A stretch of 64,000 bases of DNA, taken from contig NZ_CP053826.1 in the NCBI RefSeq assembly GCF_013372125.1, positions 1,910,919-1,974,918 of the forward strand, read 5' to 3'. Of the stretch, positions 13,094 to 46,750 are shown in pieces. Both the position numbers and the translations under genes were made by a program. Positions within the stretch are counted from its first letter, which is position 1, and each line of letters begins with the position of its first letter. Origin of the DNA: Campylobacter curvus (GTDB lineage Bacteria; Campylobacterota; Campylobacteria; Campylobacterales; Campylobacteraceae). A model generated the notes under the pieces. It searched no databases. It had not been told where the DNA came from and saw nothing but the letters and a program-made list of their open reading frames with translations.

Positions 13094-15235
13094 ATGCAAT
13101 ATCTAATCAAACGAAATGGCATATACTACTTTAGAGTAGCTATCCCACTATATCTGAGACCTTATTTTGGTAATAAAACTGAATATATAACCTCCTTCCT
13201 CACAAAACGCTTTGATACAGCAAAAAATCGTGCTAAGATCTACTCTATAATTTTTAACGCGATCAAAAAGGCATGGAAGATGAATTTGAGCAGCGAACTT
13301 ATAGAGTACTTGGTGCTTATGCTTTTAAAAGCCAAGGAGGCCAAAAGTATCAAAGAGCATGATATGCTTGGCAGATATATAAATTTAGATGGACTACTAT
13401 CACTAAATTTGTTTTTAAAACAGAGTTTAAAAGAAGATAGCTTGCCCAGCGCCATATCAAAAGAGGTTGATGATATCTGCAAAAAGCTATCTTGTACTGA
13501 CTCTCACACCAAAAAGCTTCTTGGCAAAAGAGTGCTTGAAGCAACGATAGATAACATAAATCACATATCATATAAGATGTGCAAAAACCAAAAGCTACTA
13601 AATGATAAGCAACAGATATTTGTACCACTTGGCAAAAAGCACAAGAGTGCAAATTTAGATGATAGTGTCAAAGAAGAGATAGCAAAAGGTGTTAAAGAGG
13701 CTAACATAGATAGCTATCAAGACGATATAGAGACTTTAAAAAAGCAGAATTTAGTACTCCCTTTTACTAAAAAATCTCTAAAATACTCTATTTGCGAGCT
13801 AAGAGATGCTATAAATGAGCTAGCCAAGCAAAAAGGCGCACTCACACAAAACGATATTCTAAGAATATTTGGCTGCGAGTTATCACTAGATGGAGATAGT
13901 GAGCTAAGTGATGATCTAAAATTTGGGTATGGAAATTTAGATGATCCTACCTTTGGTGGTCAGGTAAAGCTATACAAGGCAGATAAATATGAAGATAAGG
14001 GCATGGTTTTAAGCGACATTGAGGCTAAAGACCTTGCGATAGATGATACGAGTGATGCTAGTGGCATGACTTTCAATGAAGCTATAAATTTCTTTCAAAA
14101 GCTCTTTTCAAATAGAGCCAAAAGCTTTAAATCCAATCTAACATCAACTACCAAAAGCGAGAGCAAAGCTGACATGGTCACACTAAAGAGCGCATTTGAA
14201 AACTATGTATCAAACACGAGTATTTCAAACAACTGGAGTGATAGCACATTTGGTCTTGTTAGATATGTAGGAAAGCTGATGTTTATGAAATTTGGTGATG
14301 GGCTAGATATTAAAAAGATAAAAAGAGATGACTTACTAAATTTTAGAAATGTCTTACTACAACTACCAACCAAGCTCTCTCAAAATAGTCTCTATAAAGA
14401 TAAAAGCTTAGATGAGATCATAGCTTTAGCAAAGGATAGACCAAAAATTTCTAAATCAACCATTAAGAAGTATATTGTTAGAGTTAGTGAGTTTTTTAAA
14501 TACTGCTACGATAGTGATTATATAGATAAGAACCCAGCTATAGATCTGCAAATAAATATAAACCAAGATGATGTTACAAATAAAAACCCTTATGAAGATA
14601 GTGACGTAAACGCACTTTTGGATATTGTGAGTAAGATCAGATCAAGTGGAGATACCAAAAGCCAAAGGATTAGCAAAGATGAGCTATTTTTTGTTACTCA
14701 TATAGCAGCTTACTCTGGCATGAGACTAAATGAGATAATCCAGCTAAACACAGATGACATAGTTGAAAAATATAACATAGTATGCTTTAGTTTAAATACA
14801 AAAATAGATGTAAAAACAGGCAAGAGTAAGACTTTAAAGACTAGAAACTCTGTAAGGATAGTCCCTATCCACTCTAAGCTAAGTAGCATTGGACTGTTTG
14901 AATTTATAGAGAGCAAAAAGAAGCTAGCTAGGAAATGCGGCAAAGCAGTTAGGTTATTTAACTGTGATAATAAAGACTTTTCTGAGTATTTTAGAAAGAA
15001 TATCAATACTAAAGTTATAAAAGATAGTGATAAAACAAGGACATTTCACTCATTTAGACACACTTTCATAAACAAGCTCATCCAAAGTGGCCAGAGGGTC
15101 GAGCATATAGCTGCTCTGGTAGGATACGAGCAACAATACAAGATCACTATGAATACTTATGGCGAACCAGTAACTCCTAAAATTCTAAAGGATCTAGTCG
15201 AGGAGATAAATTTTTATCAAGGAGGGGAAGGGTGA
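13094..15235 (+). CDS. Tyrosine recombinase (island integrase)
   Basis: A 713-residue integrase. The N terminus (YLIKRNGIYYFRVAIP) resembles the DUF6538-type domain of long phage-type integrases, a central SAM-like core-binding region lies around residues 370-520, and the catalytic domain follows. The catalytic Arg is in S-G-M-R-L-N-E (about residue 543), H-x2-R in H-S-F-R-H-T-F (about 652) and the nucleophile Tyr in N-T-Y-G-E (about 687). The usual L-G-H near the end reads V-G-Y. It begins 107 nt inside the left att copy and reads inwards. It is the likely enzyme for integration into the tRNA gene. Confidence 0.92.
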   Translation: MQYLIKRNGIYYFRVAIPLYLRPYFGNKTEYITSFLTKRFDTAKNRAKIYSIIFNAIKKAWKMNLSSELIEYLVLMLLKAKEAKSIKEHDMLGRYINLDGLLSLNLFLKQSLKEDSLPSAISKEVDDICKKLSCTDSHTKKLLGKRVLEATIDNINHISYKMCKNQKLLNDKQQIFVPLGKKHKSANLDDSVKEEIAKGVKEANIDSYQDDIETLKKQNLVLPFTKKSLKYSICELRDAINELAKQKGALTQNDILRIFGCELSLDGDSELSDDLKFGYGNLDDPTFGGQVKLYKADKYEDKGMVLSDIEAKDLAIDDTSDASGMTFNEAINFFQKLFSNRAKSFKSNLTSTTKSESKADMVTLKSAFENYVSNTSISNNWSDSTFGLVRYVGKLMFMKFGDGLDIKKIKRDDLLNFRNVLLQLPTKLSQNSLYKDKSLDEIIALAKDRPKISKSTIKKYIVRVSEFFKYCYDSDYIDKNPAIDLQININQDDVTNKNPYEDSDVNALLDIVSKIRSSGDTKSQRISKDELFFVTHIAAYSGMRLNEIIQLNTDDIVEKYNIVCFSLNTKIDVKTGKSKTLKTRNSVRIVPIHSKLSSIGLFEFIESKKKLARKCGKAVRLFNCDNKDFSEYFRKNINTKVIKDSDKTRTFHSFRHTFINKLIQSGQRVEHIAALVGYEQQYKITMNTYGEPVTPKILKDLVEEINFYQGGEG

Positions 15236-15533: not shown

Positions 15534-17549
15534 CTAAAACCCTATTTTCACACTCTTTTCTTCATTTTTTAGTGCAACTTCAAGCTCAAGTCTATGGCAA
15601 AAGTCGTCGCCGTTTTTTATAGGTCTAAATTTAGCTTGTCTTCTCACACTGGCAAAGTCTCCAGGCGTTAGCAAGCCTAAATTTGAAACCTTTTTGGCTG
15701 CATTTTCGTCAAATTTGACTTTTAGTAGTGTGCACTCTTTTTTAAACAAATTTTGCGCTTGCTCTGGCAGCAAATAGCTAAACTCAAGTTTTAGATCAAA
15801 CCTTCTAAGACAGGCTTTATCTAGATTATCGATCAAATTCGTCGTAGCGATAAAGATACCATCAAAGCTCTCCATCTGCACTAACATCTCATTCACTTGG
15901 GTTACTTCCCAGCTTCTTGTAGCCATGCCTCTATCTTGCAAAAAGCTATCTACTTCGTCAAAGACTAGCACAGCATGTTTTTCTTTGGCTTCTTTGAAGG
16001 CTAATGCTATATTTTTCTCAGTTCCTCCTACAAACATAGATAAAAGATCGCTTCCTTTTTTGATGATGATCGGCTTTTTTAGACTTTTAGCGATAAATTT
16101 AGCATAAGCACTTTTGCCAGTTCCAGGCACACCATAAAGGCATATTCTTGCGTTTTTGCTTACTTTTATGCCTTGCATTAACTCTTTTAGATCGCAGTCT
16201 GAGTTTACGAAATTTGGATCGTAGCTGCTTGGCAGATCGTCTCTTGGATTGTAATCTCTTATCTCCTCGTAACCTTGTGCTTTTAAAGTGTTGTTTATCA
16301 CTCGCTCAAAGGCTTTATTTTTGTCCTTTGTGTTTAAATTTGAGACAACAGCGCTTGCGTTACTGATGAGCGCTGGAGCTATAAACTTATTTTTAGCTAG
16401 CTTTTTTACGAGCTTATTGTCTATCAAATTTTCACTATATTTTTTTATGATCTTTGCTCTTACATCTTCAGTTGGTATGCCTATCTCTATGGCTAGGTTA
16501 AACCTTCTAACCACGGCCTCATCCATATCAAAAATGTTATTTGTTATCCAAATAGTAGGCAGCTCATTAGTCTCAAGAGATCTATTTATAAAGGCTTTGC
16601 CGTACTGTCTTTTTTCGTCATTATTTGTGTTAAATATATCCTCTGCTTCGTCATACATCAATAAATTTGATCCAGCGGATAGTACATTTTGTGCAAGACA
16701 ATACGATCTTATCCTTTGATGCTCATTTGCATATCCATCTCCGTCATCATAAGCTACTTCATAAAGCTTCAAATTTAGCTCACTAGCTATCACTTTGCTA
16801 AGCTCTGTTTTACCAGTTCCTGCTGAGCCATATAGGAGTACATTTACTCCTTTTTGCTTTTTAGTAATGGCATTTTTTAGAAATGAGAGCAAAATTTTCA
16901 CATCTTCTTTTATGTGTGGGTAGCTCTTTGTGGTCAAATTTGTCTTGCTACATGGCTTTATCGAGCTTTCAAATATCTCGTCCATGCTTTCACATTTAAT
17001 AAACAAATCACACATAAAGTTATTGTTTATGACATCGATTTTATATTTTAGATTATGCGTATTAGTGTCTAGTCTTATTATCGAAGTCTTGGCAAAGATT
17101 CCATCTTTTCTAAAGACCTTTTGAACATCGCCAAAGTTTAAATTTAGTATCTTTGAGATAGCTTTTATGGCTTGTATGTTATTTAACTCTCCTAGTGTAT
17201 TGCAGGCATTAGAGACTACTTCATAGTTGTACATGATCGCGACAAATCTCAAAATATCTCTCTCGGTACTATTTAGACCTAAATTTTCTTGAAGTAAATT
17301 TAGGTTGTGTTCAAGATCTTTTAGCTCGCATGAAATTTGACTTTTTTCAAGAATTTCAAGTCTGTTTTTAAGATTTTGGATATCTTCTTCTTTAGGCTCT
17401 TTTGACTCGATACCCAAAAACTCTAAAACATCGTCACATCCGCTTCTTAACAATTCTCTTTCTCCTCCGAGATCAAAAATAGCACGAAGTGTCCAAAGTG
17501 TCGCAAGCTCATATATCTCGCCATCTACGTAAAAAATCTCTTTTTCCAT
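15534..17549 (-). CDS. Tandem AAA+ ATPase (two ATPase domains)
   Basis: A 671-residue protein with an N-terminal helical region (about 1-200), a first AAA+ domain (Walker A LLYGSAGTGKTEL near residue 240, Walker B LLMYDEAEDIF near 300) and a second AAA+ domain (CLYGVPGTGKSAY near 476, VLVFDEVDSFL near 530). The pattern suggests a two-tier remodelling or unfolding machine of the Cdc48/FtsH-like branch without a protease domain. The ribosome site AGGAG precedes ATG 17549. Its promoter carries palindrome site 1 (17598-17611), so it belongs to the proposed WYL-controlled set. The role is unknown; defence is likely from context. Confidence 0.85.
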   Translation of the reverse strand: MEKEIFYVDGEIYELATLWTLRAIFDLGGERELLRSGCDDVLEFLGIESKEPKEEDIQNLKNRLEILEKSQISCELKDLEHNLNLLQENLGLNSTERDILRFVAIMYNYEVVSNACNTLGELNNIQAIKAISKILNLNFGDVQKVFRKDGIFAKTSIIRLDTNTHNLKYKIDVINNNFMCDLFIKCESMDEIFESSIKPCSKTNLTTKSYPHIKEDVKILLSFLKNAITKKQKGVNVLLYGSAGTGKTELSKVIASELNLKLYEVAYDDGDGYANEHQRIRSYCLAQNVLSAGSNLLMYDEAEDIFNTNNDEKRQYGKAFINRSLETNELPTIWITNNIFDMDEAVVRRFNLAIEIGIPTEDVRAKIIKKYSENLIDNKLVKKLAKNKFIAPALISNASAVVSNLNTKDKNKAFERVINNTLKAQGYEEIRDYNPRDDLPSSYDPNFVNSDCDLKELMQGIKVSKNARICLYGVPGTGKSAYAKFIAKSLKKPIIIKKGSDLLSMFVGGTEKNIALAFKEAKEKHAVLVFDEVDSFLQDRGMATRSWEVTQVNEMLVQMESFDGIFIATTNLIDNLDKACLRRFDLKLEFSYLLPEQAQNLFKKECTLLKVKFDENAAKKVSNLGLLTPGDFASVRRQAKFRPIKNGDDFCHRLELEVALKNEEKSVKIGF

Positions 17550-17579: not shown

Positions 17580-17611
17580 ATTTTACTTGGCATAAAAGAC
17601 ATTTTTATGTC
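17580..17611 (-). promoter_or_regulatory. WYL-type operator site 1 with promoter
   Basis: The palindrome GACATTTTTATGTC (17598-17611) lies exactly 12 nt upstream of a minus-strand -10 box, TAAAAT (17580-17585). The next gene in that direction is the tandem AAA+ ATPase, 31 nt further on. It has the same layout as six other sites in this island. Confidence 0.8.
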
Positions 17612-17654
17612 CATAATGATAAAAATTTGGGAAATTTTTGTGAGAAAAATTTAA

Positions 17655-17678
17655 AAAGAGCGTCCTAAAACGCTCTTT
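17655..17678 (-). terminator. Rho-independent terminator of the 115-aa gene
   Basis: AAAGAGCGT and ACGCTCTTT form a 9-bp perfect stem with a 6-nt loop. On the minus strand a T-rich run follows. It lies about 85 nt after the stop of the gene at 17764. Confidence 0.75.
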
Positions 17679-17763
17679 ATTTACTCCAGCGTATCACCAC
17701 TATATGGCAGCTCCAGATCTTTTGCACTAGATTAGCACAATCTTGTATTGTAGGTTTATTTTT

Positions 17764-18111
17764 TTATTTATTTAAGAACTTAACTAGTTCATCTTTAAAA
17801 TAGTCATCATCATACTCTTCACCCTGAGCATCATATGATAGTTCAAAAGAGACATTACCAATGCAAGCACTTACACTTGACATATAAGAAGTCGGTTTTT
17901 TAGTATAGGCTTCTATGGCCAGGCTTGCTGGCATAAAAGAGTTTTGGTAGTTAAATTCACTCCTAGCAATAACACATTTTTCATTTAGGTATGAATTGCA
18001 AAATTCTAAAAACTTAGCTCCTAATTCATCTGCTAGCTCTCTTTGTGTGCTAGCCAAATCTACAAACTGCTCAATTATAGGAGCAGTTTTAACAACTTTT
18101 TTCTTTGACAT
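17764..18111 (-). CDS. Hypothetical protein, 115 aa
   Basis: I do not recognise this protein. It is small, acidic at the C terminus (EEYDDDYFKDE) and has no membrane segment or clear motif. A strong AAGGAG site precedes ATG 18111. Its own promoter has operator site 2 at 18184-18196, and a terminator follows it, so it is a single-gene unit within the WYL-type regulon. Confidence 0.75.
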   Translation of the reverse strand: MSKKKVVKTAPIIEQFVDLASTQRELADELGAKFLEFCNSYLNEKCVIARSEFNYQNSFMPASLAIEAYTKKPTSYMSSVSACIGNVSFELSYDAQGEEYDDDYFKDELVKFLNK

Positions 18112-18165
18112 TTTTTCTCCTTTGTTTTAATTATTTTTTGTCAAGATATCTTTGTGACATGTGAA

Positions 18166-18196
18166 ATTATAACAAGCAAAATGGACAAAAAATGTC
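18166..18196 (-). promoter_or_regulatory. WYL-type operator site 2 with promoter
   Basis: On the plus strand GACAAAAAATGTC spans 18184-18196. On the minus strand TATAAT (18166-18171) follows 12 nt later. The -10 box continues into TTTCACAT, which is shared with site 3, so the two promoters are clear relatives. Confidence 0.82.
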
Positions 18197-18368
18197 TATA
18201 TTTAGAAATTTTAATAAAAAAATTAATCGCTTTTTGTCTTGCGCTTTATTTATCTTTATATGTAAAAAATTAAGCTTAGATAATGATATTTATAAAAAAA
18301 GATAAAAACAACCTTGCTTTGTTTTTGATCTGATTAAACTTGCTATGGTTTTTTTAGCTTATTTTTCT

Positions 18369-19265
18369 TTAAATTTCATAGTATTCATCCCAGCAAAGTG
18401 CCATATCAACAGAGCCTATGCGCAGCATGTCTTTGATCTTATTGATATGTGTGTTATTGTTAAAAGCTGCAAATAGATAGCAAAAATACGCCTTGTCGTC
18501 AAAGTAGATCGAACTACCAAAATATTCATTGCAGTTTTGCGTCCAGCGGCTCTTTTGCTTGCTCATTTCGCCAGGAACGATAGGCTCATTGATGATGGCT
18601 AAGAAATTGTCGTCATTTTCGTCATAATCTGGATCGTCTTCGCACAGGCGAAAGACCAAACGAAATTCCATAGCATAATCCTCGATAAATCCACCCTCAA
18701 CCCTTGCTTTTAGCCTGTTTTCAAGTATCTGTGCATCTCTTATTAGTATATCTTGATAAGCAGCTAGCGCTTTATTTATCTTTTCTATCTGCTCCCATTG
18801 ATCCTTATTAGCATCAGAAATATACTCTTCTTTCTTGCTACACTCTAGTTTTTCTAGGTAAAGATCTATAGGCGTATAGTCGTACCATGAGTGAAGCTTG
18901 CCATCCATCCTGTCAATAGTCAAAATTTCATCCCAGCTAAGATCTGTATGGTCATATAAGCAGTGATAAAACCAGCAATGCCACTCACCAAACATCTCAT
19001 GCGTTGGCCAGTTTCTAAATTCGCTCTGATTTTCAGTATAAAAGTAGTCATCTATGTGATTCATAAACTGCCCATATCGCATAAGAAGTTTATCTTTTGA
19101 GTAAAAAGAGAGCAATAGGCTACATTTATGATCCCATGCCTCTTTTATATCTTTTACAGAGATGTTTATCTGTTTTGCACGTGGCACAACTCGGCGCTCA
19201 AGGTCATAAAGCCTTTCGTTTATGCTATTTAGCTTTTGCCTTTGTTCTTTTGTAAATTTTTCCAT
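18369..19265 (-). CDS. Hypothetical protein, 298 aa
   Basis: I do not recognise this protein. It is soluble, rich in charged and aromatic residues (for example W-P-T-H-E-M-F-G-E-W-H-C-W-F-Y), with an acidic cluster C-E-D-D-P-D-Y-D-E-N-D-D. No catalytic motif stands out. It lies 9 nt after the 195-aa gene and probably shares its promoter at operator site 3. The pair looks like one functional unit of the island. Confidence 0.75.
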   Translation of the reverse strand: MEKFTKEQRQKLNSINERLYDLERRVVPRAKQINISVKDIKEAWDHKCSLLLSFYSKDKLLMRYGQFMNHIDDYFYTENQSEFRNWPTHEMFGEWHCWFYHCLYDHTDLSWDEILTIDRMDGKLHSWYDYTPIDLYLEKLECSKKEEYISDANKDQWEQIEKINKALAAYQDILIRDAQILENRLKARVEGGFIEDYAMEFRLVFRLCEDDPDYDENDDNFLAIINEPIVPGEMSKQKSRWTQNCNEYFGSSIYFDDKAYFCYLFAAFNNNTHINKIKDMLRIGSVDMALCWDEYYEI

Positions 19266-19274
19266 TTTTGTCCT

Positions 19275-19862
19275 TTAAAATTTAATCGTCGCAACTTGTT
19301 CAGCCATCTCTTTATCTGTAAAATTTCCGTTTGTATCAAGCGAGTAATTTTTGCCTAAAAAATAGAGCTTAAAGCCCGTTATCTCGCCAAAGATAGGTAG
19401 CGTTTTCGTCTTTTGATAGTAGTCTTTAACGACTTGAGAGATTGTATTTAGCTGCTCGTCTAATGCTTTAAAACAGAGCTTGTCTAAAAATGGCGTTAGG
19501 CTGATATATCTTAGATGCTGCGTCATAGCAAGGGCAAATATAGGTTCATTTTTGCGCTTGAAATTTGTATCTATGTAGATATATGAGCCTCTAAATTTTA
19601 CTCGCTCGTTGTAGAGTTTTTGCACCTCGCTAAGCTCAGCGTCTATGCTAAGGCCAAAGTGCTTGCTAAGAGCAAGGATGAGCGTTTCTGAGCTGTGCGC
19701 CCAGTCAAAATGCCCCTTTGTGATAAACTCATCAAGGCTCTTTGCCGCCTCTAAATTTGCAAGTGCTCTTGTGAAATTTTGCTCTCTTACGTAGCCAAGT
19801 GCTTTCGAGAGTGCCTTCTTGTCGCTATTTTGTGTGAGAATTTTGAGCTCTTCGTAGATCAT
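19275..19862 (-). CDS. Hypothetical protein, 195 aa
   Basis: A soluble 195-residue protein that I do not recognise. Alanine- and leucine-rich helices make up the first half; no known motif is seen. It is the first gene of a two-gene operon with the 298-aa protein. Its promoter is the minus-strand half of the operator site 3 region; AAGGAT precedes ATG 19862. Confidence 0.75.
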   Translation of the reverse strand: MIYEELKILTQNSDKKALSKALGYVREQNFTRALANLEAAKSLDEFITKGHFDWAHSSETLILALSKHFGLSIDAELSEVQKLYNERVKFRGSYIYIDTNFKRKNEPIFALAMTQHLRYISLTPFLDKLCFKALDEQLNTISQVVKDYYQKTKTLPIFGEITGFKLYFLGKNYSLDTNGNFTDKEMAEQVATIKF

Positions 19863-19914
19863 TGATTATCCTTTTTTGATTTTTATCGCCGATACATTTT
19901 TTGCGATATGTGAA

Positions 19915-19945
19915 ATTATAGCAACCAGAGTAGACAAAAAATGTC
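19915..19945 (-). promoter_or_regulatory. WYL-type operator site 3 with promoter
   Basis: GACAAAAAATGTC (19933-19945) is followed on the minus strand, after exactly 12 nt, by TATAAT (19915-19920). On the plus strand a TAAAAT lies 14 nt after the site, towards the deiminase gene, so the site may serve both directions. Confidence 0.82.
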
Positions 19946-19996
19946 CAGAATTTTACTAGTAAAATTTCACAAAAACTATAAAATTTAGGAGCAAAT

Positions 19997-20794
19997 ATGC
20001 AGCCAACTATCCTACTTTCAGCACTTTTACCAAAACACCACGCCAAAGTAACCACCAGTTTGTGCCAGATATTTGACCGGCACGGAGTTGGCTATCAGTT
20101 TTTGCAAACAAAAGACATTTGGATGAGGGACTTTATGCCGTTTTTGCTAGATAATGGGCGCCTCGTCTCTTACGACTACGATCCAGACTACCTAAAAGAT
20201 GATAAATATAGCCATCTAAGGACAAAGATCCAGCCGCTAAAAGAACATATAAATTTAGTCATTGATGGTGGAAATTTCATAAGGCTTGGAGGCAAAGCCA
20301 TCATGACTGATAAAATTTTCAAAGAAAATCCAACAAAAACAAAGTCCGAGATCATTGAGACCATAAAGCAAAAATGCGCGCTAAATGAGCTCATCATCAT
20401 ACCAAGGCAGCCATACGATATGCTAGGTCACAGCGACGGCATGGTGAGGTGGATAGATGAAAACAGCGTGCTATTAAATGACTTTTCAAACGAGAGTAAG
20501 AGTTTTAACGATAGGCTTATAAAGGCTCTTAAAAAGTACGGTTTGAATATCAAATTTATGAAGTATGGCGAGGGCTTTTTTAGTAAAAAGAGAGATTGGG
20601 GCGCTTACTTAAATTTTATTAAAATTAAGGATATTTTAATAGTTCCGATATATGGGATGGATGATGACGATACGGCGATAGAGCAGATCAAGAAAATTTA
20701 TAGTGGCTGCAGTGTAGAGACGATAAATTTAAGCGAAATCATAGAGCTTGGCGGAGCGCTACACTGCATAACGGCAGAGAAATTTGGGTGGTAG
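19997..20794 (+). CDS. Agmatine deiminase / peptidylarginine deiminase-like protein
   Basis: A 265-residue protein of the guanidino-group modifying family. It has W-M-R-D-F-M-P (residues 42-48), G-H-S-D-G (about 143-147) and a C-terminal G-G-A-L-H-C-I-T, which correspond to the substrate-binding and catalytic Asp, His and Cys of agmatine and peptidylarginine deiminases. It is shorter than typical agmatine deiminases (about 330-370), so the substrate is uncertain. It starts at ATG 19997 after AGGAG and lies among defence-like genes, divergent from the 195-aa gene across operator site 3. Confidence 0.82.
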   Translation: MQPTILLSALLPKHHAKVTTSLCQIFDRHGVGYQFLQTKDIWMRDFMPFLLDNGRLVSYDYDPDYLKDDKYSHLRTKIQPLKEHINLVIDGGNFIRLGGKAIMTDKIFKENPTKTKSEIIETIKQKCALNELIIIPRQPYDMLGHSDGMVRWIDENSVLLNDFSNESKSFNDRLIKALKKYGLNIKFMKYGEGFFSKKRDWGAYLNFIKIKDILIVPIYGMDDDDTAIEQIKKIYSGCSVETINLSEIIELGGALHCITAEKFGW

Positions 20795-20814
20795 AGTTAC
20801 CGCCATTTATAAAA

Positions 20815-21624
20815 CTATTTTTTGTTTTTGCTCCAATATTCAAAATCTTCTGGAAATTCTACATTCTTGTTTAAATAATTATTCCAAAATTTGTTTATAC
20901 CTCTGGCAATAGGTTCAAAACTCTCAGCTGACAAAAAATCGCTTTTTGCATTATTGCAAATGTAGCAAGCCAAGCGACAATTCTCTTTTGAATATTTATT
21001 TTTACTTTCTGGTGCTGTAATCACTCGCTCAACTTCTAAAAATTTTCCTCTTTGTCTAGCATCTTTATATTGTGTGTTTTTACTATGAAAATATTTTTTT
21101 AGGTCTGCTTCTTCAATGCCACAATAGCAACATTTTTTCTCTTGGTTGTTATACCAATTTAAAAATTCATCTCTTCCGCCAAAACCTTTTATTCTATCCG
21201 CAGTAGCTAGGCTATTTATTCTTCTATCGTTATCGGCATAATCAGTAAATGATTCGATATTTAAGTCAATCATATCTTTTTGTGCTACTGTTACACTACC
21301 TTTATTTTTACAAATTTCAAATTTATCATTAAAAAGCACCTCCATATCAGCATCAAATTTTTTTATCTTAAGCTCAAGCCTATAAAATTTATCATCATCA
21401 ATGCAACCAATGATTACATTGACATTATTTTTAACTTTTTCCAATATTTCTTTTTTTAATAAAAGTCTATATTTCTTATCGGCTCTTTTTGAAATACTTT
21501 TTACAATCACCTTCTCGTCGTCTTTTTCAGCATAAAACCAGTCACCGGAATTGGATATAAAATTCTCAAATCTCTTGTCTGTTAAAATATATGCTCTTGT
21601 TCTAAGTGTTAATTTCTCTATCAT
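20815..21624 (-). CDS. HNH-type endonuclease
   Basis: A 269-residue protein with a C-terminal HNH zinc-finger nuclease: C-C-Y-C-G, then L-E-V-E-R-V-I, then N-C-R-L-A-C-Y-I-C-N-N-A-K-S-D. The second half of the motif and both Cys pairs are intact. The first catalytic position, usually D-H, is E-R, as seen in some HNH variants. The N-terminal 150 residues are unlike anything I know. Its promoter lies on the minus side of operator site 4, divergent from the Sir2 operon. A restriction or abortive role is likely. Confidence 0.82.
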   Translation of the reverse strand: MIEKLTLRTRAYILTDKRFENFISNSGDWFYAEKDDEKVIVKSISKRADKKYRLLLKKEILEKVKNNVNVIIGCIDDDKFYRLELKIKKFDADMEVLFNDKFEICKNKGSVTVAQKDMIDLNIESFTDYADNDRRINSLATADRIKGFGGRDEFLNWYNNQEKKCCYCGIEEADLKKYFHSKNTQYKDARQRGKFLEVERVITAPESKNKYSKENCRLACYICNNAKSDFLSAESFEPIARGINKFWNNYLNKNVEFPEDFEYWSKNKK

Positions 21625-21652
21625 ATTTTCTCTCCTTCATAAGATTTTCACT

Positions 21653-21703
21653 ATTTTACCAAAAGATAACGGACAAAAAATTGTCTTATTAGTTTATTAC
21701 AAT
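21653..21703. promoter_or_regulatory. WYL-type operator site 4 with two divergent promoters
   Basis: GACAAAAAATTGTC (21672-21685) lies between HNH and Sir2 genes. To the right, TACAAT (21698-21703) follows after 12 nt. To the left, TAAAAT (21653-21658, minus strand) follows after 13 nt. One operator could thus control both directions, including the operon that encodes the WYL regulator. Confidence 0.83.
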
Positions 21704-21730
21704 TACTAAAATTTCTTTAAAAGGATCAGA

Positions 21731-22549
21731 ATGCAAGAGAATATAGATAGGATCAAAAAGATCATCGCAGAGGCTGATGCGGTCATCATAACAGCAGGTG
21801 CTGGCATGGGTGTGGATAGCGGATTGCCTGATTTTAGAGGCGATCTTGGCTTTTGGAAAGCATATCCACTCTTAAGGGATAAAAATTTAAGCTTTGAAGA
21901 TATGGCAAATCCGCAGTGGTTTTTAGACGATCCAAAGCTAGCATGGGCATTTTACGGACACAGGCTAAATTTATACAAAAGCGCAGAGCCTCACGAGGGC
22001 TTTGGGCTACTTTTAGATCTTGTAAAAAGCAAAAACGACAACTACTTCATCTACACATCAAACGTCGATGGTCACTTCCAAAAAGCTGGCTTTAGCGAGG
22101 AGAAAATTTACGAGTGTCACGGCTCTATCCACTACTCTCAGTGTATACATAAGCGTGATGGAGATATCTGGGAAACAAGCAGCAATGTCAAAGTAGATGA
22201 AGAGAAATTTATAGCTTTAGATATGCCTATTTGCCCAGAGTGTGGCTGTGTGAGCCGTCCAAATATCGTGATGTTTTACGACTGGATGATAAACACAAAA
22301 CGCATAAACGAGCAGTATGAGAGATATAAAGCATGGCTAGATACAAATGAAGATAGCCGTTTTGTGGTTATAGAGTTAGGTGCAGGGCTTGCGGTGCCGA
22401 CTATCAGAAATTTTGGTGAGAAATTTGTCAAGCGCTCCAAAAAAGCGACGCTCATACGCATAAACCCGCGAGATAACTACATCTCGGAGTATATCGGCAT
22501 AAGTCTAAAATGTGGTGCGCTAGATGGCCTTAGGCAGATATTATGCTAA
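21731..22549 (+). CDS. Sir2 family NAD-dependent deacylase
   Basis: A 272-residue sirtuin-like protein. It has the NAD-binding G-A-G-M-G-V-D-S-G-L-P-D-F-R-G (residues 23-37), Y-T-S-N-V-D-G-H, the catalytic C-H-G-S and a zinc-ribbon-like C-P-E-C-G-C. Because the catalytic His and zinc cysteines are kept, it may be a lysine deacylase rather than only an NAD hydrolase like Sir2 effectors of Thoeris or DSR systems. It is the first gene of a four-gene operon with the WYL regulator, Fic and phosphoesterase genes. Promoter and operator (site 4) lie just upstream. Confidence 0.87.
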   Translation: MQENIDRIKKIIAEADAVIITAGAGMGVDSGLPDFRGDLGFWKAYPLLRDKNLSFEDMANPQWFLDDPKLAWAFYGHRLNLYKSAEPHEGFGLLLDLVKSKNDNYFIYTSNVDGHFQKAGFSEEKIYECHGSIHYSQCIHKRDGDIWETSSNVKVDEEKFIALDMPICPECGCVSRPNIVMFYDWMINTKRINEQYERYKAWLDTNEDSRFVVIELGAGLAVPTIRNFGEKFVKRSKKATLIRINPRDNYISEYIGISLKCGALDGLRQILC

Positions 22550-22566
22550 AAAAGACATATCCTAGT

Positions 22567-22595
22567 CCTAGTTTGGATATAATCTCCGAACTAGG
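22567..22595 (+). promoter_or_regulatory. Inverted repeat over the WYL ribosome-binding site
   Basis: CCTAGTTTGGA and TCCGAACTAGG form 11-bp arms (one mismatch) around seven bases. The right arm holds part of the AGGAG ribosome site (22593-22597) of the WYL gene, and TATAAT lies in the loop. It could be an RNA hairpin that masks translation, or an extra operator. Confidence 0.6.
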
Positions 22596-22602
22596 AGATC
22601 AA

Positions 22603-23520
22603 ATGAAACCTATCATAAATAAACAAGAAAACAGCAAATTTGAACGCATAAATTTAATAGCCCTAAAGCTAAGGGAGAGACCCCACTCGATAAAAGAGCT
22701 AACAGAAATGCTTGGAGTGACCTCAAAGACCATACAGCGCGACCTTTACGACACGTTAAAAGACTATGGTGCGGTCAAAAAGGGGCACTACTGGAGCATA
22801 AATGACGAAGAGGCTAGCGACGGACTAAACGGCGATGATAGAGTGGTGCTAAACATACTTGATAACGTAGCTAAAAACATGGGATCAAATTTCTACAGCA
22901 AAGCTCACGTGCTATTAGAGCAAATTTCTCAGCAGCTAAACCACCCAATACTAACAAATATCAACAACGAAAAGCTAAGCGAGGATGATCTTGTAAATTT
23001 CCAAGCGCTTGAGGACGCCATAAGAGAAAAAGCCGAGATAATATGCACTTATAACGGTTTTGAATTTCGTGTAAAACCGCTAAAACTGGCACTTTTTGAG
23101 GGATTTTGGTATTTGCTTTTGCTTGATAGTAACAAAGGCGATAAATTTAAAAAATTTCACCTAAAAAGCATAAAAGATATAAGGCAAAGTGGGGGTAAAT
23201 TTGAACTAAGTAGTGAGCTAGATGAGCGAGTAAAGGCTATGAACTCGGCCTGGGCAAACCTTGAAAAGCCAAAAACAGCAAGGCTATTACTAGCCCCTGA
23301 AGTGGCAAAATACTTCGAGCGAAAACCGCACGCAAAGCAGCGCATAACAGGTCAAGATAACGACGGCTCAGTCGAGATAGAGATAGAATTTACACACATC
23401 ATGGAGATAAAGCCACTTATATACTACTACCTGCCATTTATCAAGGTCCTTGCGCCAAAAGAGCTAGCAGATGAGGTCAAAAAGGATGTCAGCGAGTATC
23501 TAAAAGAGATAAATTTCTAA
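22603..23520 (+). CDS. WYL-domain transcriptional regulator
   Basis: A protein of about 305 residues with an N-terminal winged helix (about 25-60: S-I-K-E-L-T-E-M-L-G-V-T-S-K-T-I-Q-R-D-L), a WYL domain (G-F-W-Y-L-L-L-L-D near 167) and a C-terminal WCX region (Y-Y-L-P-F-I-K-V-L-A-P-K). The frame is open to an ATG at 22543 inside Sir2, but ATG 22603 has an AGGAG site at the right distance. WYL regulators (CapW, BrxR) control phage defence operons. I infer that this protein binds the GACA-N5/6-TGTC sites of the island. Its own operon starts at such a site. Confidence 0.85.
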   Translation: MKPIINKQENSKFERINLIALKLRERPHSIKELTEMLGVTSKTIQRDLYDTLKDYGAVKKGHYWSINDEEASDGLNGDDRVVLNILDNVAKNMGSNFYSKAHVLLEQISQQLNHPILTNINNEKLSEDDLVNFQALEDAIREKAEIICTYNGFEFRVKPLKLALFEGFWYLLLLDSNKGDKFKKFHLKSIKDIRQSGGKFELSSELDERVKAMNSAWANLEKPKTARLLLAPEVAKYFERKPHAKQRITGQDNDGSVEIEIEFTHIMEIKPLIYYYLPFIKVLAPKELADEVKKDVSEYLKEINF

Positions 23521-23523
23521 GCC

Positions 23524-24060
23524 ATGAGCAGCAACGACAAAGAGACACTTGAGCTAATAAGAGACTACAAAAAGAGCTGGTTGCTACTGCAAAAATTTGA
23601 TGATGGCTCACTTGGTCTTTGCAAAAGCGATGTGGGCGAAAATTTTATCCTTGAATATGACGAGGCGCTAATGGCAGTGGATGAGCTAAAAAGAGAGCTA
23701 GGAAAAAAGGGCGAGGCATCTAAAATTTTTGGCATTCAAAAGGCGAGCGAATTTGAAGGGATAATAAAAAATATATATCAGACCTTTGGCGGACGTGATC
23801 TTTTAGTAAGCCCGCAAGAAAAAGCGGCAAATTTGATCTACTACATCATCAAAGACCACCCTTTTAGCGACGGCAACAAACGTATCGGATCATTTATATT
23901 TATCTTGTTTTTATCAAAGTGCAAGTTTCTTTATAAAAGCAGTGGCGAGCTAAGGATAAACGACAACGCCCTTGTTGCACTTGCATTGTTAATTGCTCAA
24001 AGTGAGCCAAAGCAAAAAGACATGGTGGTAAATTTGATCACAAATTTACTTGTGGATTAA
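23524..24060 (+). CDS. Fic/Doc family protein
   Basis: A 178-residue Fic-domain protein with an intact active loop H-P-F-S-D-G-N-K-R (residues 112-120). Fic enzymes usually transfer AMP or other phosphate groups to proteins. The N-terminal 60 residues resemble the Fic half of RhuM-like virulence proteins. No clear inhibitory alpha-helix motif (S/T-x3-E-G/N) is seen, so activity may be held in check otherwise. It starts 3 nt after the WYL gene stop, so it is coupled to the regulator. Confidence 0.86.
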   Translation: MSSNDKETLELIRDYKKSWLLLQKFDDGSLGLCKSDVGENFILEYDEALMAVDELKRELGKKGEASKIFGIQKASEFEGIIKNIYQTFGGRDLLVSPQEKAANLIYYIIKDHPFSDGNKRIGSFIFILFLSKCKFLYKSSGELRINDNALVALALLIAQSEPKQKDMVVNLITNLLVD

Positions 24061-24076
24061 AGGCTGATAGATACAA

Positions 24077-24652
24077 ATGAGCGGCATAAAACTTTTTCAC
24101 GCTAGCGACCTACACTTTAATGCTGGCTATTTCGAATACATTTTGACCCTTCAAGACAAATTTGACATTTTTTGTTTTAGTGGTGATTTTCTATGCAAAG
24201 AGAGCACACAAGAAAAAGAGCAAACTGCTTTGTGGCTAAAAAGCTTTAAAAAGCCTGTATTTGCATGCTCTGGTAACCACGATATGCCGCCCTCTTGGCT
24301 AAATTCTATAAGCGGCATATATGCTGATGGCACTATAAAAACCATAAATGGCGTTAAATTTGGCTGCGCGCCTTACTTGTGTGATGATCTGATTGAATTT
24401 GCGGAGTGTGATATCTTACTGACCCACGTCCCACCAGCAAAGACAAATACGAGCATCAGTAAAAATGACAAGGATCACGGAGATATAGAGCTTGCAAGGC
24501 TTATCAAAAATAATCTTTTAAAGGCAAAGATCATCCTTTGCGGGCATATCCACGAGCCAAAATCACACACGGACGTTTTAAACGGAGTTAAAATTTACAA
24601 CTCAGCAAGCAGCGGCTCAAAAGAGCCATTTTATCAAGAGATAGAGCTATAA
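24077..24652 (+). CDS. Calcineurin-like metallophosphoesterase
   Basis: A 191-residue metallophosphoesterase with all five family motifs: D-L-H (residues 11-13), G-D-F near 36, G-N-H-D, T-H-V-P-P and G-H-I-H-E. The fold binds two metal ions and cleaves phosphodiesters or nucleotides. It is the last gene of the Sir2-WYL-Fic-phosphoesterase operon, 16 nt after the Fic stop. Its end overlaps the convergent 110-aa gene by 19 nt. It might remove Fic-type modifications or degrade a signal nucleotide (inference). Confidence 0.85.
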   Translation: MSGIKLFHASDLHFNAGYFEYILTLQDKFDIFCFSGDFLCKESTQEKEQTALWLKSFKKPVFACSGNHDMPPSWLNSISGIYADGTIKTINGVKFGCAPYLCDDLIEFAECDILLTHVPPAKTNTSISKNDKDHGDIELARLIKNNLLKAKIILCGHIHEPKSHTDVLNGVKIYNSASSGSKEPFYQEIEL

Positions 24653-24966
24653 CTTTCTATCATTTTAGCCACCTCTTGATGCTCATATGGTGTCATTTCT
24701 ATATTTAAAATTTGCAAGCATATCTCTTTTATAAATTCGCCCTCACAGCCAAAGTCGTTTTTTAGATTTTGCAGTATAAATTTAGCCTCAGTAACGAAAT
24801 CATACGCATTATTTAATGCCTTAACAGCTTGCTTGTAAAAATCTTTTGACATTTCTGTGCAGCTGTATTTAGTAAAATTAGCATTATTTACGTAATCATA
24901 GCTTGATTTTGCCTGCGCCAAAAAAGAAAATTCATCATATTCTTGCCAAAATTCTTGCTTGGTCAT
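24634..24966 (-). CDS. Hypothetical protein, 110 aa
   Basis: I do not recognise this helical 110-residue protein (A-V-K-A-L-N-N-A-Y-D-F-V-T-E-A-K-F). It could be a HEPN-like or antitoxin-like helical bundle, but no R-x4-6-H motif is seen. AGGAG precedes ATG 24966. It is a single-gene unit under operator site 5 and ends tail-to-tail with the phosphoesterase gene. Confidence 0.7.
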   Translation of the reverse strand: MTKQEFWQEYDEFSFLAQAKSSYDYVNNANFTKYSCTEMSKDFYKQAVKALNNAYDFVTEAKFILQNLKNDFGCEGEFIKEICLQILNIEMTPYEHQEVAKMIESYSSIS

Positions 24967-24985
24967 GTTTTACTCCTATCCCTTT

Positions 24986-25020
24986 ATTGTAAATAAAAAT
25001 ATAGACAAAATTTGTCTATA
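24986..25020 (-). promoter_or_regulatory. WYL-type operator site 5 with promoter
   Basis: This is the most perfect site: TATAGACAAA-A-TTTGTCTATA (25000-25020) is a 21-bp exact palindrome around one base. The core GACAAAATTTGTC is 25004-25016. On the minus strand TACAAT (24986-24991) follows after 12 nt, in front of the 110-aa gene. Confidence 0.86.
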
Positions 25021-25036
25021 AAATATCTCAAAAACA

Positions 25037-25068
25037 GACATTTTCATGTCTTTAACTCTCATTAATAT
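25037..25068 (+). promoter_or_regulatory. WYL-type operator site 6 with promoter
   Basis: GACATTTTCATGTC (25037-25050) is followed on the plus strand after 12 nt by TAATAT (25063-25068). The small gene at 25095 is next. Sites 5 and 6 are only 20 nt apart and drive divergent genes. Confidence 0.82.
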
Positions 25069-25094
25069 CCTCTTAAATTTTAGGAGATAAAAAA

Positions 25095-25265
25095 ATGGCT
25101 TACACCAAACAAGGAAAAGAGCTTTTGATAGCTTTTGATCAAAAGCTTCTTGAGATACAGCGCGAGATGACGGCAGAGTATCTACGTATTAAAGAGCTTT
25201 TTAAGGCGAATTTTGACCATGATCATAACATGATAGACATTGTCTGCGAGGTTTATTTTATATGA
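25095..25265 (+). CDS. Small protein, 56 aa
   Basis: A short frame of 56 codons that begins MAYTKQGKELL with an AGGAG site (25083-25087) upstream. It is charged and helical and has no known motif. Its stop overlaps the next start by 4 nt (ATGA). It is expressed from the promoter at operator site 6. The ribosome site, promoter and overlap all argue that it is real. Confidence 0.7.
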   Translation: MAYTKQGKELLIAFDQKLLEIQREMTAEYLRIKELFKANFDHDHNMIDIVCEVYFI

Positions 25266-25598
25266 AAGACTACGAAGAAGAAATTCTCTCTGTTAAGTTA
25301 CAGGACTTTTACTTTGAAGATGGTTATGATCTTAGTGGTATAGAACTATGCTGTGATGGGCGGCTGCAGGGCTTTGACTGCTCTATCATACTCACTGAGA
25401 TACATAGCACCTCAATAACTATAGAAGAAATTTTGTCTATTGATGATATATATATTGGCATTTTTAGCCAAAGCTATACTACAAAAAGAAAAAATAGGTG
25501 CCGCGCTTAATGAGAAGCTTATTTGGATGCCTATTGTAAGCTCCGATGACTACGACGTATATCTGCCAAAGGGTGTTAGAGAGGTAGACACCTTTTAA
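25262..25598 (+). pseudogene. Unknown gene with one frameshift (two frames, about 111 aa joined)
   Basis: The first frame (MKDYEEEILSVKLQDF..., 82 codons to 25510) changes at about 25464 to a second frame that continues A-I-L-Q-K-E-K-I-G-A-A-L-N-E-K and ends at TAA 25596. Removing one T from the run TTTTT near 25463-25467 joins them into one smooth protein. It is either a real frameshift or a homopolymer error. It overlaps the 56-aa gene by ATGA. The protein is unknown to me. Confidence 0.65.
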
Positions 25599-25823
25599 AG
25601 ACTTTGATAATATATATTCGTATTCGTAGAAGTATTTGGAGCTCTTGGGTAATTTCGAATATAACATTTTGCCAAAAAGTTATAAAAATTTTATTACTCG
25701 CTTTAGACAAACGCCCACTCAAAATTTTATAAACATCTTTTTGCTTACCAAATGTAAGATAGGTAAAATATTTAAGCCCAGAGATCAGGGCTTAAATTTA
25801 TTTATACAACTATAAAGTATACC

Positions 25824-27572
25824 CTATAGTAACTCTCGTAATTTGTTTATCATTAGTTTTTCACGTTTTTCATAAAAATCATCAAAATTATCTAAAGATA
25901 AATCAACATCAGGTATTAAATGATCCATTAAAAATTTACTCTTGTCTTTATTTCTACATTCGTTTTCAACCCACTCCTCAAGACTCTTATCATTTTTAGC
26001 CATATTTTCGTTTGCATCTAGCAACTGTAAATTAGGGAGAGCATCGTACATGGAAAAGTCATAGTATTCTTTTTTATTTTTCTCCATCAATTTTTTATAC
26101 TCTTTGTATTTACTTTCTGGATGCAAGTGATCCTTGTGGAAGTTATTCTTTGTGTCTAAATTTGGATACAAGATAGATAAGACGGCAAAAGCCTCTGGAC
26201 TATTTTTTCTATACAGCATTAAGTCTTGCAAAAAGTCATCATCAACAGCATTGCTATATTTATAAGACTTTTCAATACCTTCTAACGGAAATTCATCAAT
26301 GTTTTCGTCAAAAAATACTTTACCGTCAAAATCCTTTTTAAATACTTTTCTCGTTGCGGTTAAAACGCTATCTGCACTTCCTCCAAACGGCTTAAATAGC
26401 GTAGCCCTTAGTAAGTATTTTTTTATAACTTCCCTAGTTTGCTTTTGCCCAGTACTGTGAACTATAGAACTGGCCAAATTTTTATGATATACATAATAAA
26501 GTACCGGTAGAATTGCATTATTTGAACTCATTGTTTGCGCATTAAACCCAAAATTTTCAAGCAGATCAAAAACGCTATGAAAAGCCATTTTTATGTTATC
26601 CCATTGCTGTTCGATATTTTCTATAAATCCGTTATTAAAACTACCTATGTCAAATTTTATATTTTCGTGATATAAATATAAAAACGCTTTAAGTACTAAA
26701 TCCTTCGAGATATTAAAGCCTTTAGAGTTATTTATAAAATCAACAAGTTCATTGATCTCTTTTCTGGCATCTTTTTGTTTCCAGTTAGCGATAGCATAGC
26801 TAAATAAGATATCAGAATAGCTAAGGTGTGTCCCGCCTGAGTTAATACGAATAAATATATTCACTGCCTTTTCTGGATTTTGTTCATCTTCTTGATAGAA
26901 GCTAATAATATCTTCTGAAAATACTCTTTTTTCAAAAAGTGCTAAATTTTTAGTTTCTTTGCTGGATAAACCAAAATTTTCTTGTATTTCCATAGCCTTT
27001 ACGTCGTTATTGCTATGAGGATATATATCTTTGCATCTAAACCATTTTTGACCAAATTTATCCATGTAAATGGTTTTGCTGCCAGTTTCAGCTTTTTCCA
27101 ACCATAAAAATTCATATTCTACGTTATCATTTTTAGGTTCTTGACTTGCGGTTAGGTTAAAATAAAACTCACAAATTTTAAATTTATCGTCTGTATCTTC
27201 CCATTTTTTATACGGCCTATGCGTATGGTATTCGCCGCAAAGCGCCAAATATAGCGAAGTTAATCTTTGTTGTCCATCTAGTATAGCCGAAAATTCACTA
27301 ATGCTCTTGGTAGGCTTGTATTCGTTATGAGTATGATACCATTCCCTAAAGTATCTTAAAAAACTGTAAAACTTCCATTGCTCTGCACTTTCGCTTCTAA
27401 CTTTCCAAAAAAGCATAGAGCTAATAGGATAGCCTCGCATAATAGAATCAAATAGCCTTTCCACTTGCTCTCCAGACCAAACATACTCCCTTTGAAATGC
27501 GGGAATAAGATATTTATCCGTCCCGATTTCTCGTATCGCATCCGCTATTGTTATTTGTTGAAATCCAGCCAT
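25824..27572 (-). CDS. DUF262 / DUF1524 protein (GmrSD-like type IV restriction)
   Basis: A 582-residue protein with an N-terminal DUF262 domain (I-P-A-F-Q-R-E-Y-V-W at 23-32 and D-G-Q-Q-R at 99-103) and a C-terminal DUF1524-type HNH region (D-H-L-H-P-E-S-K and L-P-N-L-Q-L-L-D-A-N-E-N). Fused enzymes of this kind (GmrSD, SspE, BrxU relatives) use nucleotide hydrolysis and cut modified or phosphorothioated DNA. The gene stands alone; its promoter has a TATAAT (about 27602, minus strand) without the GACA palindrome, so it appears to lie outside the proposed regulon. Confidence 0.87.
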   Translation of the reverse strand: MAGFQQITIADAIREIGTDKYLIPAFQREYVWSGEQVERLFDSIMRGYPISSMLFWKVRSESAEQWKFYSFLRYFREWYHTHNEYKPTKSISEFSAILDGQQRLTSLYLALCGEYHTHRPYKKWEDTDDKFKICEFYFNLTASQEPKNDNVEYEFLWLEKAETGSKTIYMDKFGQKWFRCKDIYPHSNNDVKAMEIQENFGLSSKETKNLALFEKRVFSEDIISFYQEDEQNPEKAVNIFIRINSGGTHLSYSDILFSYAIANWKQKDARKEINELVDFINNSKGFNISKDLVLKAFLYLYHENIKFDIGSFNNGFIENIEQQWDNIKMAFHSVFDLLENFGFNAQTMSSNNAILPVLYYVYHKNLASSIVHSTGQKQTREVIKKYLLRATLFKPFGGSADSVLTATRKVFKKDFDGKVFFDENIDEFPLEGIEKSYKYSNAVDDDFLQDLMLYRKNSPEAFAVLSILYPNLDTKNNFHKDHLHPESKYKEYKKLMEKNKKEYYDFSMYDALPNLQLLDANENMAKNDKSLEEWVENECRNKDKSKFLMDHLIPDVDLSLDNFDDFYEKREKLMINKLRELL

Positions 27573-27639
27573 ATTTACTCCATTTTAAAATTTGGCTACT
27601 ATTATAGCCGTTTTTATATTTAATTTATAATTATTAAAA

Positions 27640-27746
27640 AATAAGAATGCCAGCACCTGCTGTGATGACTGTGGCATCTGTGTTTTTGAGATCTCCTTTG
27701 CGTGGAGTATTGCTTCTTCCAATGATTCAAATTTATCTGCGTCCAT
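27640..27746 (-). pseudogene. Remnant of a second Sir2-like gene behind an intact promoter
   Basis: ATG 27746 is preceded by AGGAGG and encodes MDADKFESLEEAILHAKE; after a frameshift the sequence reads T-D-A-T-V-I-T-A-G-A-G, the NAD-binding strand of Sir2, then stops. Only about 35 residues remain, so the rest has been deleted. Its promoter still carries operator site 7. It is a decayed relative of the Sir2 gene at 21731. Confidence 0.65.
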
Positions 27747-27778
27747 GTTGCCTCCTATGGTTTAAAATACCTATAGGC

Positions 27779-27809
27779 ATTATAGCCAGTAAAGCAGACA
27801 CTTTTTGTC
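27779..27809 (-). promoter_or_regulatory. WYL-type operator site 7 with promoter
   Basis: GACACTTTTTGTC (27797-27809) is followed on the minus strand after exactly 12 nt by TATAAT (27779-27784), then AGGAGG and the Sir2 remnant. The site lies at the very end of the DUF2779 gene. The promoter has outlived its gene. Confidence 0.8.
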
Positions 27810-29287: not shown

Positions 29288-29432
29288 TTCTTATACCTTT
29301 AAATTTTATTTATTCTTATATATCGTCAAAAATATCTTTGTTTTAACGTCCTTTTGTAGGATCATACCTATAAAATAGGAATAAAAAATGTCTGCTTTTT
29401 ACTTTAAAATTCATCCCAAAAAAGGAGTAGCG

Positions 29433-46704: not shown

Positions 46705-46750
46705 TTGGTGTCACGGGGGAGACTTGAACTCCCGACCTCCGGCTTATGAG
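46705..46750. repeat. Island attachment site, right copy (inside the tRNA gene)
   Basis: Identical over 46 bases to 12941-12986. It forms the 3' half of the intact tRNA gene, so integration restored the tRNA. Confidence 0.93.

Follow-up and report, generated by a model that had tools for sequence, protein, structure and literature searches.

The last 64 kb of the 1.97-Mb single-contig genome of Campylobacter curvus, hereafter the window, carry an island of candidate defence cassettes together with seven copies of a palindrome, GACA-N5/6-TGTC, which we call the box. Genes for a tandem AAA+ ATPase, a Sir2-family protein, a WYL-domain regulator, a Fic-domain protein and a calcineurin-like phosphoesterase lie among these boxes, as do several genes for proteins without any family (Table 1); for many units the defence role rests on PADLOC candidate families. 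We found that the boxes stand in strict register with -10 elements and go with WYL genes across the family Campylobacteraceae, and we propose that the island as a whole probably answers to a single regulator, activation being likelier than repression.

Exactly seven boxes are present in the window, starting at 17598, 18184, 19933, 21672, 25004, 25037 and 27797, where a first-pass annotation of this DNA had placed them; shuffled sequences held 0.63 on average and 3 at most (n = 100). They form eight box/-10 pairs, in agreement with its claim of at least eight promoters: 17598(-), 18184(-), 19933(-), 21672(+), 25004(-), 25037(+) and 27797(-) have a gap of 12 nucleotides (nt; N12), and 21672(-) alone has N13. 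None of the seven sites lies inside an open reading frame (ORF) of at least 100 amino acids (aa), and 12 of 15 other genomic matches checked (of 16) lie inside ORFs of at least 150 aa. The whole genome contains 23 strict box matches, as against 13 for a reversed control. When TANNAT at N12 was required with 0-1 mismatch, the seven island sites were the only ones in the genome; with two mismatches, 26 places outside the window matched (both gap lengths), compared with 24 in the whole-genome reversed control. The first-pass annotation would have been refuted by a motif common all over the genome in unrelated promoters; these searches did not refute it.

The same register is seen beyond the window. 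We examined 60 regions around WYL genes outside it (1.03 Mb), a subset of the listed WYL matches that includes strains of the same species. There the gap between GACA and TGTC was 5 in 56 cases and 6 in 31, with no other gap from 0 to 15 occurring more than nine times; among 118 de-duplicated orientations, 22 had TATAAT at N12, and no other distance had it more than once. With any inverted 4-mer pair allowed, 38 of 71 were GACA. Box promoters of the N12 pattern, 83 with the window included, fell into 32 groups with unlike flanks (20 of gap 5, 11 of gap 6, 1 mixed), a figure that counts independent cases and not the register, since it was drawn with that pattern. Because both gaps keep N12, the -10-proximal half-site is the anchored one and the far half-site shifts by 1 bp. 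A rise of TAnnnT at N14 is read as a shifted reading of TATAAT at N12. Most genes start 18-63 nt after the -10; others start farther away, and for at least one site no ORF was in range. Two single boxes (L143:959-971 and L144:2302-2314) have a -10 at 12 nt on both sides, and each may be one palindrome serving two divergent promoters.

Among strains, four corresponding promoters in seven or eight strains had identical half-sites and a 98-100% conserved -10, identities that are partly built in by picking the rows with the strict pattern; the spacer was constant in length with only 74-96% of its letters kept. In L016 the sir2 box is kept but its -10 reads TATACT, and this row is absent from the strict-pattern alignment. 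A single-strain artefact was considered and set aside. The flank upstream of the box at L081:7757 is entirely different from that of the other seven strains aligned with it, as would be expected if boxes were points of recombination between cassettes.

To relate boxes to regulators, we surveyed 153 genomes of the family, 63 with a WYL domain and 90 without. A recurring match, GACARATCATGTC..., which 23 genomes of the genus carry at one copy apiece, was excluded from the counts beforehand; in both loci examined (L059 and L066) it lies inside a 416-aa ORF, which we take to be PurA. The 63 WYL genomes held 149 of the 178 family box promoters and the 90 others 29, with 15 and 17 for the reversed control; at least two boxes occurred in 31 of 63 WYL-bearing genomes versus 2 of 90 others. 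As the surveyed genomes are kin, p-values on these counts are overstated. Of these 149 boxes, 103 have a WYL gene within 10 kb, where chance would give about 3, and 52 of 95 WYL genes have a strict box within that distance; in genome G115, boxes and WYL gene share a contig but are 38-50 kb apart. Outside the family (a 397-genome search with the family genomes left out), GAC-N7-GTC-N12/13-TATAAT occurred 65 times in 110 genomes with WYL and 29 times in 167 without it, the control counts being 18 and 32, an excess that is real but modest. The link between box and WYL regulators is strong in the family and weaker in other families of the class.

What the boxes precede also recurs: tandem AAA+ (Table 1), DUF2779 and PDDEXK_4 genes are found under boxes across species. 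In L083 and L142, from two other species, full boxes precede homologues of the window's DUF2779 gene (42% and 57% identical, respectively), and the box that corresponds to 27797 precedes PDDEXK_4 genes in L016 and L079. Another box regulon of several cassettes, in which N13 predominates, lies at L142:5216-16802 and includes WG-repeat, DUF2779 and AAA+ genes; a WYL gene sits 38-50 kb away on that contig. In another species a RelA/SpoT-domain gene lies under a GACACAACCTGTC box (L141:17057-18271).

Across these loci the core GAC-N7/8-GTC is constant and the interior varies with WYL clade. Interiors are A/T-rich in the island's clade, GACAYAACCTGTC with RTILRDF or IRTIQRDL helices and GACACTATATGTC with YKTIRRDF. 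Many more distant WYL proteins have no box in their region, and L079 has a GACATAACCTGTC box inside an island of the window's WYL clade, an exception to the idea of the interior as an address. A clade 45-48% identical to the island WYL protein has no strict boxes and uses GAC-N7-GTC-N13-TATAAT instead; its box precedes a 640-aa tandem AAA+ homologue and, in the one case scanned, a PDDEXK_4 gene. Co-occurrence with WYL genes (weaker outside the family) and clade-dependent interiors together support two proposals of the first-pass annotation, one operator set for the multi-cassette island and its WYL protein as the reader. An island-wide WYL operator set had also been thought new in itself; it is not peculiar to this island, as the same rule recurs through the class. 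We did not find the box rule in print in the open-access literature (preprints lay outside the search), in which 'defence island' gave one Pseudomonas paper; likewise, no relevant title appeared among the matches listed for Campylobacter or C. concisus with WYL.

Table 1 Box promoters, genes and related elements of the island
Feature	Coordinates	Strand	Details
Tandem AAA+ ATPase	15534..17549	-	IetA-like by PADLOC; homologues (33-46% identical) under boxes at nine loci in other species
WYL-box promoter of tandem AAA+ gene	17580..17611	-	GACATAAAAATGTC-N12-TAAAAT (N6); corresponding gene preceded by this box in 7 other strains
115-aa protein	17764..18111	-	no family found
WYL-box promoter of 115-aa gene	18166..18196	-	GACATTTTTTGTC-N12-TATAAT
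298-aa protein	18369..19265	-	downstream of 195-aa gene
195-aa protein	19275..19862	-	no family found
WYL-box promoter of 195-aa gene	19915..19945	-	GACATTTTTTGTC-N12-TATAAT
269-aa protein, HNH-like	20815..21624	-	weak HNH match below Pfam cut-off (19.5 vs 21.4 bits)
Promoter of 269-aa gene, 21672 box read leftwards	21653..21685	-	N13-TAAAAT
WYL-box promoter of Sir2-WYL-Fic-phosphoesterase operon	21672..21703	+	GACAAAAAATTGTC-N12-TACAAT
Sir2-family protein	21731..22549	+	PF02146
Off-register box between sir2 and wyl, putative own promoter of WYL gene	22554..22583	+	GACATATCCTAGTC-N10-TATAAT
Predicted hairpin	22566..22596	+	TATAAT in loop; right arm ends in Shine-Dalgarno AGGA(G)
WYL regulator	22603..23520	+	winged helix-turn-helix (wHTH), three low-confidence helices, WYL, WCX
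Fic-domain protein	23524..24060	+	PADLOC PDC-S23
Calcineurin-like phosphoesterase	24077..24652	+
110-aa protein	24634..24966	-	no family found
WYL-box promoter of 110-aa gene	24986..25016	-	GACAAATTTTGTC-N12-TACAAT
WYL-box promoter of variable cassette	25037..25068	+	GACATTTTCATGTC-N12-TAATAT; cassette varies between strains, here 56-aa and 82-aa ORFs
GmrSD_N/HEC-05 protein	25824..27572	-	first long ORF after 27797 box, 206 nt from its -10
WYL-box promoter	27779..27809	-	GACAAAAAGTGTC-N12-TATAAT; here before Sir2-like remnant
Degenerate box before DUF2779 gene, tentative	29361..29392	-	GACATTTTTTATTC-N12-TATGAT

The units under the boxes largely correspond to those first described, with corrections. 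The WYL operon does begin at a box, 21672(+). Of three units called hypothetical, 19997-20794 is a Porphyromonas-type peptidyl-arginine deiminase, and no -10 was seen at 12-13 nt on the side of the 19933 box that faces it. The HNH unit has its promoter, 21672(-), but its HNH identity falls short of the Pfam cut-off. The Sir2 remnant after the 27797 box is, by our reading, a short Sir2-like peptide, TDATVITAGAGI, in a frame other than that of ORF 27585-27746. The 195-aa protein had no confident structural or fold match (best E 1.6), the 298-aa protein has an 89% identical counterpart under its own box in L079, and the degenerate 29361 box belongs to a class, two-mismatch matches, that is at control level genome-wide. 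None of the NCBIfam matches listed for window proteins reached its cut-off (for the AAA+ protein, 25 of 38 were listed). A phage-type integrase (13094-15235) lies left of the boxes and island, and the sole tRNA found in the window is at 46706.

The island regulator has the domain plan of WYL transcription factors (class A), an N-terminal wHTH followed by WYL and WCX. PF13280 and PF25583 score above their cut-offs and HTH_11 below its own; the model places the wHTH at 8-66, WYL at 127-199 and WCX at 204-303, with middle helices of low confidence. An in-frame ATG also occurs at 22543. Proteins of two Campylobacter concisus genomes share 94% identity with it (two loci in the close-relative scan). 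DriD and PafBC rank first among its kin by sequence profile and by Foldseek, whereas by VIA DriD leads but PafBC and BrxR tie; a single-protein search of solved structures gave chance-level matches only. By our reading of alignments some basic residues appear to be kept in the beta4/5 region, and binding of single-stranded DNA (ssDNA) by the WYL domain is a prediction. The regulator had been called the only obvious DNA-binding protein of this part of the island. Pfam scans of 20 window ORFs (the short ones in part) agree, returning otherwise only the integrase and the weak HNH match, but the genome has a second WYL/WCX-type protein with an Mga-like HTH about 145 kb away, at 1787474-1788424 (L138:9474-10424). 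About 3 kb from it, at L138:13675, a reversed core, GTCAAATTTTGAC-N12-TATAAT, was observed.

From the boxes, their register and their company we infer how the island would work. We judge it rather probable that the island's WYL protein recognises the box and that a homodimer activates the eight promoters on ssDNA, as do DriD and PafBC, WYL activators reported to sense ssDNA (PMC12340889, PMC5656591). The homodimer would sit on GACA-N5/6-TGTC, whose half nearer the -10 falls at about -28 to -25, at the place of the missing -35 element, and would touch RNA polymerase in fixed register with the -10. The WYL domain would bind ssDNA from phage infection or damage, turning on the eight promoters together, and the sir2-wyl operon would itself be box-driven.

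The first-pass annotation had drawn an analogy to CapW and BrxR, WYL regulators of defence operons that are both repressors (PMC9122588, PMC9122601); like them, a dimer over the -35 region might silence the island and release it on binding ssDNA. Both are structurally related to the island protein, BrxR tying with PafBC by VIA, and the strong -10s (perfect TATAAT in three of the eight promoters, TGN in three) speak against activation and would suit a repressed promoter. In these reports, however, the operators of CapW overlap the -10 and that of BrxR is located downstream of the -10, whereas all eight boxes here end 12-13 nt before the -10, at about -37 to -25. Steric repression needs no 1-bp register, whereas a single spacing dominates the distance histogram, N12 (in one clade N13), while the far half may shift by 1 bp; CapW and Acinetobacter BrxR chains were also not among profile matches up to E 10. 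The analogy is unsupported because the box geometry, a fixed gap upstream of the -10 (N12 in seven of eight promoters, N13 in one) with the proximal half near -26 and the register repeated in 60 loci, is that of DriD and PafBC; WYL activators are reported to act at -26. By this comparison the mode is probably not CapW/BrxR-like repression, which we hold unlikely if still a serious contender, and we lean clearly towards activation. Both kinds of WYL regulator are reported to sense ssDNA (for repressors, in the titles of one reference and one structure), so phage or damage would induce the island under either sign.

A second rival concerns the identity of the reader. The second WYL/WCX protein, or an unrelated island factor, might read the boxes, the WYL co-occurrence being a by-product of defence islands, and some boxes do occur in genomes without a WYL match. 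This is improbable, however, given that interiors follow the clade of the neighbouring WYL protein, that boxes crowd within 10 kb of WYL genes, that the second protein lacks a strict box within 70 kb and that the Pfam scan of 20 window ORFs offers so few other DNA-binding families. A fixed distance to the -10 and inner T/A tracts would also fit an ordinary promoter part, a -35 substitute for sigma-70 and not an operator. We set this aside as very improbable, as box and -10 with 0-1 mismatch occur nowhere else in 1.97 Mb.

The WYL gene may be supplied separately. Upstream of it (22554-22605), the off-register box keeps GACA, AGTC, TATAAT and their spacing in nine of nine loci and overlaps the 12-pair stem of a potential hairpin, whose folding z is -3.8 in the window, -6.0 in L083 and only -2.1 in L016. 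In five of the 12 pairs both bases have changed, in each case in a single row, the distant L083; one pair is disrupted in six of nine rows and another in seven, so that the covariation is no more than suggestive. By pairing in read-through mRNA the stem may mask the ribosome site, for which T4 gene e offers a comparison, or may instead be a CapW-like operator over the WYL gene's own -10, an element separate from the boxes. If the gene is transcribed from the loop promoter while the hairpin masks its ribosome site in the long mRNA, the WYL level may be uncoupled from the induced operon. Such a promoter, in a hairpin loop behind an off-register box, would be new.

A LexA DNA-binding domain (PF01726) had no match in the window's genome (G000) and one in the 41 genomes searched, and a C. 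jejuni study describes a group without LexA in which a typical SOS response was not found (PMC2390758). Also new are the box rule for the class and, for a genome with no LexA match, the prediction of an inducible defence regulon. Tentatively, WYL proteins could be a general ssDNA-triggered on-switch of defence islands in LexA-less Campylobacteria, with GAC-N7/8-GTC-N12/13-TATAAT as shared code, the interior as clade address and cassettes joining by acquiring a box; the loop promoter in a ribosome-site-hiding hairpin would insulate WYL supply, with the off-register box as brake. This gives a testable promoter code for WYL regulators over a bacterial class, from which regulons can be read and co-induced defence genes predicted, bears on phage and DNA-damage sensing without LexA, and offers a clean activator-versus-repressor test among defence-linked WYL proteins.

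Several known systems share parts of this arrangement (PMC9122589, PMC11804915, PMC10693628, PMC12409362, PMC13373217, PMC12255303). RptR is likewise a single regulator of a multi-gene defence island, but a small repressor with TAGCTA sites, three direct repeats at one promoter. CapW in the cyclic-oligonucleotide-based antiphage signalling system (CBASS) and BrxR in bacteriophage exclusion (BREX) are WYL regulators in defence islands that bind palindromes, BrxR at two boxes in one island; they differ in repressing, in having fewer sites and in operator position. SiwR of M. smegmatis is a WYL activator with a palindrome upstream of the -10 and an essential -26 region, but it serves one adjacent operon, has a conserved GGA at -26 and responds to oxidative and genotoxic stress. 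The mycobacterial PafBC regulon shares TGTC-N12-TAnnnT, the -26 element and an ssDNA-sensing WYL activator (PMC5656591); PafBC is a heterodimer in which PafB alone reads promoter DNA, whereas both palindrome halves are kept here. The DriD regulon of Caulobacter crescentus has a wHTH-3-helix-WYL-WCX protein that is the best structural match and a GAC-N7-GTC core that agrees down to the published probe (PMC12340889), with sites centred on -35 at constant -10 distance and a bidirectional promoter. That distance is ambiguous from the printed promoters, and the bapE site could not be located in our scan. Among the differences, the targets of DriD are repair and division genes, its ATAC..GTAT flanks are missing here, and N6 boxes occur here; activation is established for DriD and, by analogy, predicted for the island.

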